Under the pieces are notes generated by a model. That model did no database searches. It worked only from the letters and a program-made list of their open reading frames with translations, and was not told the DNA's origin. This document shows, piece by piece, positions 36,733-39,352 of a DNA stretch of 64,000 nt. The translations under genes and the position numbers were made by a program. Position 1 is the stretch's first letter. The number at the start of each line of letters is the position of its first letter. Source of the stretch: Ectothiorhodospira haloalkaliphila ATCC 51935 (GTDB lineage: Bacteria; Pseudomonadota; Gammaproteobacteria; Ectothiorhodospirales; Ectothiorhodospiraceae); assembly GCF_000633935.1 (NCBI RefSeq), contig NZ_KK214998.1:472046-536045 (forward strand), in the 5' to 3' direction.

Positions 36733-37971
36733 ATGGACCCAGCACGGCATCTTGAAACGGGCACCTACATCGCCCGGCAACCGATTTACAACCAGCAACT
36801 GGGCGTCCACGCCTACGAGTTGCTATTCCGCACGGCCACCTCCCCGGACAGTGCGACAGCCAGTGATGCCGCCACCTCCCATGTGATGCTCAGTGCCTTC
36901 GGCGAGATCGGCCTGGATGCGCTGGTCGGCAGTCGCCTGGCTGCCATCAACATGACCTGGCGCCTGATGGAGGAATTACGGGAGTTGGCCGTCCCTGCGG
37001 GTCGCATGATCCTGGACCTCCCGCCCTCGTTGCCCTGCGATGAAGACGCGGTGCAATTGCTGCGCGGGCTCTCCGGACAGGGCTATGTGCTGGCCCTGGA
37101 TGACTATGTCCCCGGTACATCCCGGGATGCCCTGCTGCCCGTGGTGCATCAGGTGAAGATCGACACGGCCAGCTCCCGGCCGGATGAACTGCGTCTCATC
37201 TTCAGGGGGCTGAAGACGACCCAGGTGGAAAAAGTGGCCAAGAAGGTGGAGACCCTGGAAGATTATGAATTCCTTCGGGACCTGGGTTTCGATTATTTCC
37301 AGGGCTACTTCCTCAGCCGGCCCCGGGTGTTTCGCGCGGTGAACCTGCCCACCGGCAAGCTCACCGTGCTTCGTCTGCTGGCGCGTTTGCAGCAGCCGGA
37401 GATGGATGTCCACGAACTGCAGCATCTGATCGCACAGGATCCGGGGCTGGCCTTCAAGCTGCTCAAGCTGATCAACTCTCCCTTCTTCGGCCTCAACCGG
37501 CAGGTGGACTCCCTGGCCCGGGCCATCCTCATCCTGGGGCATCGCAAGCTGGTCACCTGGGCCTGTATGCTGGTGCTCAGCGGCCTTGAGGACCGCCCCG
37601 CCGGACTCGTGCACCTGTGCCTGCAGCGCGCCGGCCTGTGCGAGCGCATCGCCCGCATGGCCGGTCGTCGCCCGGTGGAGCGTTATTTCACGGCCGGTCT
37701 GTTCTCGGCCCTGGACCTGGTGATGGAGCGCCCCTTGCCTCAGGTGATCGGCCCCTTGCCCCTGGACGATGAAATCAAGCGAGCCTTGCTGGAGGGGGAA
37801 GGCGAACTGGGTGAGGTGGTGGCTTGTGCCCGGGCCTGTGAAACCGACCAGGTGGAGAGCGTGGTCTTTGCCGATCTGCTCCGGGAAGACATCATGAACG
37901 CCATGCTGGAGGCCGGTCAGTGGGCGGATGAGGTTCAGTCAGTCTCCATCTCCGGCACGGTGCGGCGTTGA
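36733..37971 (+). CDS. EAL-HDOD signalling protein (YuxH type)
   Basis: A 412-residue cytosolic protein with an N-terminal EAL-like domain (about 10-205) and a C-terminal HDOD domain (about 205-400). The EAL signature is degenerate: ARQPIYNQQLGVHAYELLFR has YELLFR where active phosphodiesterases have E-A-L, and the downstream metal-binding residues are not evident (LALDDY occurs instead of the DDFG loop). It therefore probably binds rather than hydrolyses cyclic-di-GMP, or neither. The HDOD part starts LLARLQQPEMDVHELQHLIAQDP and contains FKLLKLINSPFFGL. Such proteins act in motility and surface signalling; partners are unknown. An AGGGGAGGG precedes the ATG. Confidence 0.88.
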   Translation: MDPARHLETGTYIARQPIYNQQLGVHAYELLFRTATSPDSATASDAATSHVMLSAFGEIGLDALVGSRLAAINMTWRLMEELRELAVPAGRMILDLPPSLPCDEDAVQLLRGLSGQGYVLALDDYVPGTSRDALLPVVHQVKIDTASSRPDELRLIFRGLKTTQVEKVAKKVETLEDYEFLRDLGFDYFQGYFLSRPRVFRAVNLPTGKLTVLRLLARLQQPEMDVHELQHLIAQDPGLAFKLLKLINSPFFGLNRQVDSLARAILILGHRKLVTWACMLVLSGLEDRPAGLVHLCLQRAGLCERIARMAGRRPVERYFTAGLFSALDLVMERPLPQVIGPLPLDDEIKRALLEGEGELGEVVACARACETDQVESVVFADLLREDIMNAMLEAGQWADEVQSVSISGTVRR

Positions 37972-37996
37972 CAGCAACATGTGAGCCTCTTAAATT
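37968..37996 (+). promoter_or_regulatory. Promoter of the metZ leader
   Basis: Perfect TTGACA (37968-37973), a 17-bp spacer and TAAATT (37991-37996). The -35 overlaps the stop codon of the upstream EAL-HDOD gene. Transcription would start near 38003, so the riboswitch below is inside the leader. A perfect 9-bp dyad GTCAGCGCC-A-GGCGCTGAC (38008-38026) directly follows the start site. Confidence 0.65.
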
Positions 37997-38034
37997 GATA
38001 AAGGTCAGTCAGCGCCAGGCGCTGACACTCTGAC

Positions 38035-38086
38035 GGCGCCGATTTGATCCAGCTTGCGGGCGCCTTAAAAATACGGCTAAAGCGGG
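38035..38086 (+). promoter_or_regulatory. SAM-II riboswitch aptamer
   Basis: The leader fits the SAM-II (SAM_alpha) pseudoknot. P1 is GGCGCC (38035-38040) with GGCGCC (38059-38064). Loop 1 begins with the conserved GATTTG (38041-38046) and continues into CCAGCTTGC. The 3' part holds the conserved GCTAAAGC (38076-38083) after an A-rich loop. P2 pairs CC-A-GCTT (38049-38055) with AAGC-GG (38080-38085). SAM-II aptamers bind S-adenosylmethionine and control methionine synthesis genes, mostly in Alphaproteobacteria. Position 60 bases before metZ fits that role. Confidence 0.87.
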
Positions 38087-38113
38087 TGACGACCCGTTTT
38101 GGCGGGTTTTTTT
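38079..38113 (+). terminator. Antiterminator/terminator switch of the SAM-II riboswitch
   Basis: AAAGCGGGT (38079-38087) can pair with ACCCGTTTT (38092-38100). The same ACCCG (38092-38096) can pair with CGGGT (38103-38107), followed by seven T (38107-38113), an intrinsic terminator. The first arm overlaps the aptamer's P2 strand. With SAM bound that strand is occupied, the terminator forms and metZ is off; without SAM the antiterminator wins. Confidence 0.8.
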
Positions 38114-38146
38114 GTGCCCGACGGGGCGGGTGAGGGCAATACAACC

Positions 38147-39352
38147 ATGGAACATCCCCTGAACGATCCCGGCGATCCCACCGAGGGCTTTGATACCCGG
38201 GCCGTCCGCGCCGGCCAGCGGCGTGGACCCGAGCAGGAACATTCCGACCCCATCTATGCCACGTCCAGTTTCGTGTTCTCCAGTGCCGCCGAGGCCGCGG
38301 CCCGTTTTGCCGGTGACGAGCCAGGCAATATCTACGCCCGATTCACCAACCCCACGGTGCGAACCTTTCAGGATCGCCTGGCGGCGCTGGAAGGGGGGGA
38401 GGCCTGCGTGGCGACGGCCTCTGGCATGTCGGCCATCCTGTCCACCTGTCTCTCCCTGCTCAAGGCTGGTGATCACATCGTCTCTTCGCGCTCGGTATTT
38501 GGTTCCACCACCAACCTGTTCAGCAATTACCTCACCCGCTTCGGTATCCGGGTAACCTACGTCCCGCTGGGAGACCTTAAGGCCTGGGAGGCCGCCATCC
38601 GGCCCGAGACCCGCCTGTTGTTCGCGGAAACCCCCTCCAACCCCCTCACGGAACTGGTGGATATCCGCGCCCTGGCGGACCTGGCGCACGCCCATGACTG
38701 CCTGCTGGCCATGGACAATTGCTTTTGTACCCCGGCCCTGCAACGCCCGCTGGACCTGGGGGCCGACCTGGTGATTCACTCCGCCACCAAGTACCTGGAT
38801 GGCCAGGGACGATGCGTGGGGGGTGCAGTGGTGGGCGATGCCGAGCGGGTGGGTAAGGAGGTATTCGGCTTCTTGCGCACCGCCGGCCCCACCATGAGCC
38901 CCTTCAATGCCTGGGTGTTCCTCAAGGGCCTGGAAACACTGCGGTTGCGCATGCGGGCCCACTGTGAATCCGCACTGGCCCTGGCCCAGTGGCTGGAGGC
39001 GCAGCCGGGTGTGGCGCGCGTCCATTATCCTGGCTTGGCGTCCCACCCGCAGCATGCCCTGGCCACCCGCCAGCAGGCCGCCTTTGGCGGTATCGTCGCC
39101 TTCGAGGTGAAGGGAGGGCGGGAACAGGCGTGGCAGGTGATCGACAGTACACGCCTGCTCTCCATCACCGCCAACCTGGGGGATGCCAAGACCACCATCA
39201 CCCATCCGGCCACCACCACCCACGGGCGCATCAAACCAGAGCAACGGGAGAGCCAGGGGATCAGTGAATCACTGATCCGTGTAGCGGTGGGGCTTGAGGA
39301 CATCGAGGACATCCAGCGGGATCTGGCACGCGGGCTCGATCGGTTCCCCTGA
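38147..39352 (+). CDS. metZ: O-succinylhomoserine sulfhydrylase
   Basis: MetZ, a PLP enzyme of the Cys/Met metabolism family, makes homocysteine directly from O-succinylhomoserine and sulfide. The 401-residue product shows DTRAVRAGQRRGPEQEHSDPIY, ATASGMSAILSTCLSLL, the PLP-binding HSATKYLDGQG with Lys215, and the C-terminal SITANLGDAKTTITHPATTTH that is typical of the family. The VGGAVVG segment after the PLP lysine fits MetZ rather than cystathionine gamma-synthase. The ATG at 38147 is used; the longer open frame runs into the terminator. Direct sulfhydrylation fits an organism that lives with sulfide. Confidence 0.94.
   Translation: MEHPLNDPGDPTEGFDTRAVRAGQRRGPEQEHSDPIYATSSFVFSSAAEAAARFAGDEPGNIYARFTNPTVRTFQDRLAALEGGEACVATASGMSAILSTCLSLLKAGDHIVSSRSVFGSTTNLFSNYLTRFGIRVTYVPLGDLKAWEAAIRPETRLLFAETPSNPLTELVDIRALADLAHAHDCLLAMDNCFCTPALQRPLDLGADLVIHSATKYLDGQGRCVGGAVVGDAERVGKEVFGFLRTAGPTMSPFNAWVFLKGLETLRLRMRAHCESALALAQWLEAQPGVARVHYPGLASHPQHALATRQQAAFGGIVAFEVKGGREQAWQVIDSTRLLSITANLGDAKTTITHPATTTHGRIKPEQRESQGISESLIRVAVGLEDIEDIQRDLARGLDRFP

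Follow-up and report, generated by a model that had tools for sequence, protein, structure and literature searches.

Several bacterial leader RNAs in print resemble the putative SAM-II riboswitch that precedes the metZ gene in a 64,000-nucleotide (nt) stretch of Ectothiorhodospira haloalkaliphila ATCC 51935 DNA (contig NZ_KK214998.1, positions 472,046 to 536,045; hereafter the window, in whose own numbering features are given, on the plus strand unless stated otherwise). In Sinorhizobium meliloti, metZ carries a SAM-II riboswitch for which termination is predicted upon binding of S-adenosylmethionine (SAM), and the riboswitch RNA of ~100 nt is more abundant in rich medium (PMC9373788). The metA element, or SAM-II, was described in 2005 with a helix P1, a P2 pseudoknot, a near-consensus promoter a few nt before P1 and, in many members, putative terminators after P2; the members listed include Coxiella burnetii and Bordetella bronchiseptica (PMC1273637). 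SAM-II was reported in gammaproteobacteria in 2007, its occurrence there being called sporadic, while alpha- and betaproteobacterial representatives were found most often with terminators (PMC2258182). A 2014 study reported SAM_alpha, the Rfam name of this family, only in Rhizobiales and Rhodobacterales, and named as novel a betaproteobacterial "metXZ" RNA element upstream of metX or metZ, a pseudoknot in which region 1 pairs with region 4 and region 2 with region 6, with a terminator behind it (PMC4239095). SAM-V acts on translation and is found in marine alphaproteobacteria and Bacteroidetes (PMC6061858). Two other papers mention SAM-II in passing (PMC12452182, PMC13273304).

The window locus shares class, gene and arrangement with the metZ leader of S. 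meliloti, which unlike E. haloalkaliphila is an alphaproteobacterium and for which the accessible text mentions no 5' dyad (PMC9373788). P1, the P2 pseudoknot, the near-consensus promoter and the terminator after P2 are common to the metA element (PMC1273637) and to the window, but in the latter 38 nt lie between the promoter and P1 and are taken up by a stem-loop. A comparison by text description only finds the SAM-II topology and the same gene context in "metXZ" (PMC4239095), and the suggestion is made that this element may be SAM-II. SAM-V has a ligand core near-identical to that of SAM-II but is translational (PMC6061858), and the family reported by cmscan here is SAM-II, not SAM-V.

The leader is very probably a SAM-II riboswitch through which high SAM silences metZ by ending transcription prematurely. 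A cmscan search of the entire window with the Rfam 15 models, the check suggested by the original prediction, placed RF00521 (SAM_alpha, SAM-II) at 38026-38101 with 41.9 bits, significantly and over the gathering score of 36 (E 4.6e-6, counted over 64 kb, both strands and 4227 families). This and a tRNA are the two sole matches of the window at gathering scores, and the metZ leader is the only place where RF00521 matches in the 3.45-Mb genome. The regulated gene, 38147-39352 with an ATG at 38147, codes for an O-succinylhomoserine sulfhydrylase of 401 amino acids whose assignment as MetZ is borne out by the equivalog model NF006003 (718 bits, cut-off 522). The closest named MetZ, among the best 80 of 549 hits, from which entries of the window genome itself may be missing, is that of Ectothiorhodospira marina DSM 241 (96% identical).

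All the aptamer parts named in the original prediction were found in place. P1 is formed by two GGCGCC strands (38035-38040 and 38059-38064), its loop carries GATTTG (38041-38046), GCTTGC follows at 38052-38057 and the conserved core GCTAAAGC occupies 38076-38083. P2 pairs TCC-A-GCTT (38048-38055, with A38051 bulged) with AAGCGGG (38080-38086), all seven pairs being possible in the window (UCC-A-GCUU with AAGCGGG). The cmscan alignment retains the strongly conserved consensus stretches GAUUUGA, GCUUGC, UUAAA and GCUAAAG. GATTTG, GCTTGC and GCTAAA, which match the Rfam consensus in the window, are almost invariant across 38 sequences of the class, window included. In 37 distinct aligned homologue rows P1 and P2 together form 90.6% standard pairs; P1 is paired in 99.5% of cells, with changes on both sides in 4 of its 6 pairs, and P2 in 82.9%, with changes on both sides in 2 of 7. 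The covariation score of 0.266 exceeds the 0.121 of shuffled alignments, none of 500 being as high, and that of slid versions (at most 0.096).

The expression platform follows closely. An antiterminator hairpin with the loop GACG (38076-38103, -18.5 kcal/mol; similar pairing occurs in the class) was predicted from the pairing of AAAGCGGGT (38079-38087) with ACCCGTTTT (38092-38100); both arms are where they had been placed, though the hairpin is longer, with 12 base pairs (bp) between 38076-38087 and 38092-38103. The intrinsic terminator (38091-38113, -9.1 kcal/mol) was likewise correctly located by its core ACCCG/CGGGT (38092-38096 and 38103-38107) and T7 tract (38107-38113), its stem being refined to seven pairs (38091-38097 with 38102-38108). 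Terminator-like sites number 2 in the window against 0.6 expected, weak evidence alone. The P2 3' strand lies wholly within the antiterminator 5' arm, so that the SAM-bound and antiterminator states are mutually exclusive. When 38003-38120 is folded freely the antiterminator forms, with pairing probabilities of 0.98-1.0 at 38079-38087; with P1 imposed, and with the loop and the strands of P2 barred from other pairs to mimic SAM binding, the terminator forms at 38091-38108 against the T7 tract. Sequence and constrained folding thus make the terminator exclusive with the alternative pairing of the P2 strand, and the proposal of three mutually exclusive states is upheld by these pairings and by the two folding regimes. 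A model built from 38 aligned aptamers of the class (R1, see below) matches also the minus strand at 38079-38147 with 19.2 bits, which is taken to reflect the complementarity of the platform to the aptamer. Elsewhere in the genome a second terminator ends in CGGGTTTTTTTGTGCC like that of the riboswitch (G000:C4:1117373-1117399), with no RF00521 match there.

The covariance-model score, the homologues and the constrained folding support the identity as a SAM-II pseudoknot, the metZ target and the predicted terminator/antiterminator logic; from the riboswitch class one would expect SAM to bind and the response to run in the direction given, and the start site is likewise a prediction. Transcription would start near 38003 and yield a 5' stem-loop, then P1. 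With SAM bound, 38080-38086 would pair with 38048-38055 in the P2 pseudoknot and occupy the antiterminator 5' arm, leaving 38091-38097 to pair with 38102-38108, and RNA polymerase would stop in the T7 tract. Without SAM, 38076-38087 would pair with 38092-38103, the terminator 5' arm would be occupied and metZ would be transcribed.

A number of results weigh against this mechanism, or against its uniformity in the class. The SAM response of the window leader is a prediction from sequence and folding. The outermost P2 pair is unformed in 20 of 36 rows, and further pair types are no more numerous in the homologues than in shuffles (353 of 500 as high). Among 158 SAM-II matches of the class the strict terminator rule selects 106, and a terminator overlaps the antiterminator 3' arm in 75; the antiterminator appears in the unconstrained minimum fold of 65 of 117 leaders only. 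Within the genus, four of ten genomes have metZ without the riboswitch. These 158 matches are what is left of 170 after dropping 11 weak model matches and one duplicate; 152 are distinct over their first 70 nt, since a few genomes are represented two times (for example L004 and L119), and later counts exclude leaders in which no core or no U-tract was recognised. On the other side, a stretch like ACCYGCTTTAGC, complementary to GCTAAAGC, lies 3' of the aptamer in many leaders, the full 8-of-8 complement (G-U allowed) being found downstream in 60 of 151 against 3.1 expected from shuffles, and when the aptamer is left out of the fold 113 of 117 leaders form a hairpin directly against the U-tract, a figure without shuffled control. 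Because of these class-wide complement, terminator and folding counts, the compact platform of the window is of a type common in the class.

Two other modes of action were considered for the aptamer. That it controls metZ translation instead of termination has a precedent in the S. meliloti metA riboswitch, which acts on the Shine-Dalgarno sequence (PMC9373788), but is improbable here: a terminator stands between aptamer and gene, and with 33 nt from the U-tract to the metZ ATG the start region is covered by neither aptamer nor terminator, so that there is no sign of joint translational control. Most SAM-II members are moreover described as transcriptional (PMC6061858). Still less probable is that the aptamer has lost ligand binding, leaving the terminator as a constitutive attenuator. 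Ligand binding is predicted from sequence in this leader, and the second copies of some tandem loci elsewhere are degenerate; against such a loss, the window keeps the four consensus stretches listed above. Termination controlled by SAM thus stays the preferred explanation.

The GTDB class Gammaproteobacteria includes the former betaproteobacteria, so that a draw from it is not one of classical Gammaproteobacteria alone. In an even draw of 369 genomes from this class, made with stricter filters and from which some weak matches may be missing, RF00521 matches 118 genomes, 31 of them over the Rfam cut-off. Among 58 genomes of relatives, 11 have a match with E no worse than 1e-3, and in 3 of these it passes the cut-off. 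The original view that SAM-II is mostly alphaproteobacterial, and its gammaproteobacterial context unusual, does not hold against this frequency; Coxiella was already in the 2005 alignment (PMC1273637) and gammaproteobacterial members appear in PMC2258182. SAM-II is common in this bacterial class, and the window locus is a genuine but ordinary member. Model R1, of which the window is a seed member (78.1 bits), gives at least 49 bits for 79 of 80 further class loci and 19.3 bits for the other; these loci are outside the seed, but an RF00521 match was the ground for choosing them. The fetched loci cover the class list except for 17 rows with E weaker than 2.8e-4 and five second matches that were stronger. 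As the Rfam cut-off passes 31 of the 118 matching genomes only, annotation under-reports SAM-II in the class and lets the notion persist that SAM-II is alphaproteobacterial. The single locus adds one more well-formed SAM-II in a purple sulfur bacterium; the class survey matters more.

Of 80 named loci selected by MetZ similarity, 38 are matched by R1 ahead of metZ, on the coding strand, with E values of at most 1.5e-8, and a further locus has E 6e-4. The 38 include E. marina, Nitrococcus mobilis, Sedimenticola hydrogenitrophicus, Leucothrix pacifica and tubeworm symbionts; R1 finds no match in E. mobilis or in the Thioalkalivibrio loci of this set, and two loci (L144 and L179) have fewer than 100 bases upstream. 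Orthologous metZ is present in all ten same-genus genomes, six of which have the riboswitch.

The genes downstream of 120 class matches were taken as the longest open reading frame (ORF) of at least 60 codons starting -15 to +400 nt from the match end, which gave 117 proteins after removal of three tandem-locus repeats. By Pfam 89 are Cys/Met pyridoxal phosphate enzymes, and sulfhydrylase models of NCBIfam match 89 of the 117. SAM-II of the class is found beyond metZ also before genes with SAM synthetase domains (10) and methylenetetrahydrofolate reductase genes (3); the ~15 remaining ORFs are other genes or wrongly chosen.

Tandem arrangements, of which 44 SAM-II examples are in print (PMC9481103), were met in the class as two or more aptamers with a degenerate second copy at L011 (1398-1577, minus strand), L106 (741-932, plus), L111 (732-904, plus) and G405:C90, and in weaker form at L117, L118 and L045. 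The three second copies that were scored show no terminator by the rule used. A small plasmid of Legionella adelaidensis carries a SAM-II aptamer (L199, 2491-2568, plus strand; R1 60.7 bits) with no gene listed between it and the end of the stretch in an incomplete annotation table. A plasmid search for a named betaproteobacterial SAM-II copy returned three records, none betaproteobacterial.

Directly after the U-tract the window reads GTGCCCG (38114-38120), a conserved element that emerged from class comparison as the consensus [GA]TGCC[CT]G, largely in register with the terminator stem. The pattern N0-3-GCC[CT] follows the U-tract in 70 of 121 leaders, whereas shuffles show it in 3.4% of cases and other T-tracts of the same loci in 30 of 416; the post-U-tract counts are uncorrected for kinship between leaders. 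With the last stem G as the anchor of the alignment, 91 of 112 leaders have G at +1, 89 have Y-G at -1/+1 and 65 have GCC at +1 to +3, compared with 17 (Y-G) and 4 (GCC) of 146 other GG-T5+ stretches of the loci. Real terminators are a further control: 325 CCCG/CGGG-T6 matches from 114 genomes, including some SAM-II leaders (that of the window among them) and some matched twice, have Y-G in register in 120 cases and GCC in 29. The Y-G step is thus largely a general terminator trait, though commoner in SAM-II leaders, and GCC in register (65/112 against 29/325) sets these leaders apart. If the stem G is numbered -10, the leader consensus agrees with G-11 G-10 T-3 G-2 Y-1 G+1, the published pause consensus (PMC6062546), and pausing shapes riboswitch terminators elsewhere, for example through NusG-dependent pauses in Bacillus subtilis riboswitches (PMC12288461).

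Three simple accounts of this element were set aside. As a partner of P1 it shows some complementarity (mean longest helix 6.39 against 4.71 in shuffles), but minimum-energy folds favour the terminator 3' arm (46 of 117 leaders, shuffled 24) over the P1 3' strand (22 of 117, shuffled 6), and one covariation test was non-significant (Fisher p 0.11). A pause site exclusive to SAM-II disagrees with the 120 of 325 general terminators mentioned above. A fixed register is borne out in part: G stays at +1 in 18 of the 30 leaders with a T-run of another length than 7, and alignment on the stem gives a moderate gain in information content over alignment on the T-run end. It is possible, if rather doubtful, that SAM-II of this class is a stereotyped whole switch, made of the ACCYGCTTTAGC complement of the P2 strand, a terminator ending in GCGGGT7 and the new [GA]TGCCYG with the first G of GCC 10 nt past the last stem G, and that betaproteobacterial "metXZ" is the same RNA. 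The element would then set polymerase behaviour at the decision point, a role with which the agreement of its T-G step with the elemental-pause consensus accords, or it would pair with GCGGG stretches and so seal the read-through RNA. If functional, it would make the class a ready comparative set for polymerase behaviour built into a riboswitch terminator. A literature search of titles and abstract openings, with partial coverage, found no mention of a conserved element after the SAM-II terminator.

Upstream of the aptamer, the sigma-70-type promoter TTGACA-N17-TAAATT (37968-37996; -35 at 37968-37973, -10 at 37991-37996) had been correctly placed before the leader and is predicted by consensus match, one such site being found in the scan against 0.1 expected. 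Among 144 class aptamers, which carry some repeats, 63 have a promoter with 9 of 12 consensus positions within 110 nt, compared with 34 of 790 stretches picked at random. Between the -10 hexamer and P1 the class has a median distance of 9 nt and an upper quartile of 20 nt; it is 38 nt in the window and two sister genomes. The other Ectothiorhodospira clade has three members, two of which were scored, with 53 and 63 nt; the aptamer of the remaining one is identical to that of the second. A few other species have long distances too, partly perhaps through a mispicked promoter.

In the window this gap holds the perfect 9-bp dyad GTCAGCGCC-A-GGCGCTGAC (38008-38026), rightly located but called unexplained in the original prediction. 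It is most likely a 5' RNA hairpin, given arms kept in three species and a gap of 38 nt where the class median is 9, and would be transcribed as a stem-loop of 8 bp with a loop of 3. Its folding energy is -14.1 kcal/mol, and among 2000 shuffles that keep base composition 2 fold as low. The window has 4 perfect 9-bp dyads with a 1-nt centre, where ~0.24 would be expected with uniform base use; since such dyads are no rarity here, the interest of this one rests on conservation and place. The arms GTCAGCG/CGCTGAC are identical in the window, G007 and G009, as is the TCA immediately 5' of the dyad; the centre varies, and so does part of each flank. In folding, removal of the 5' arm alone frees its partner to invade P1, whose probability falls from 0.98 to ~0.01, and removal of the whole dyad leaves P1 unharmed; this difference also led to the stem-loop reading. 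The stem-loop may keep its own arms clear of P1, and may protect the 5' end.

The main rival to the hairpin, a DNA operator for a regulator of metZ acting alongside the riboswitch, appears somewhat unlikely. The dyad is palindromic, lies at about +5 of the presumed start and has arms identical in three species, and the S. meliloti metZ promoter also responds to the medium (PMC9373788). However, the genome has a single perfect copy of the motif and, allowing one mismatch, 3 sites against 3 for a reversed control, which leaves a regulon operator unsupported there; over the ten genus genomes 22 sites against 9 make further sites possible in some species. The dyad, which reads GTCAGCGCCAGGCGCTGAC, is without the ATC-N10-GAT palindrome given for gammaproteobacterial SahR and SamR (PMC4239095), and in the other Ectothiorhodospira clade its place is filled by a different sequence that also folds. 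The hairpin reading is accordingly retained as the more likely one. Upstream of metZ lies an ORF (36733-37971) with weak EAL-type matches, whose TGA stop codon (37969-37971) lies inside the -35 hexamer.

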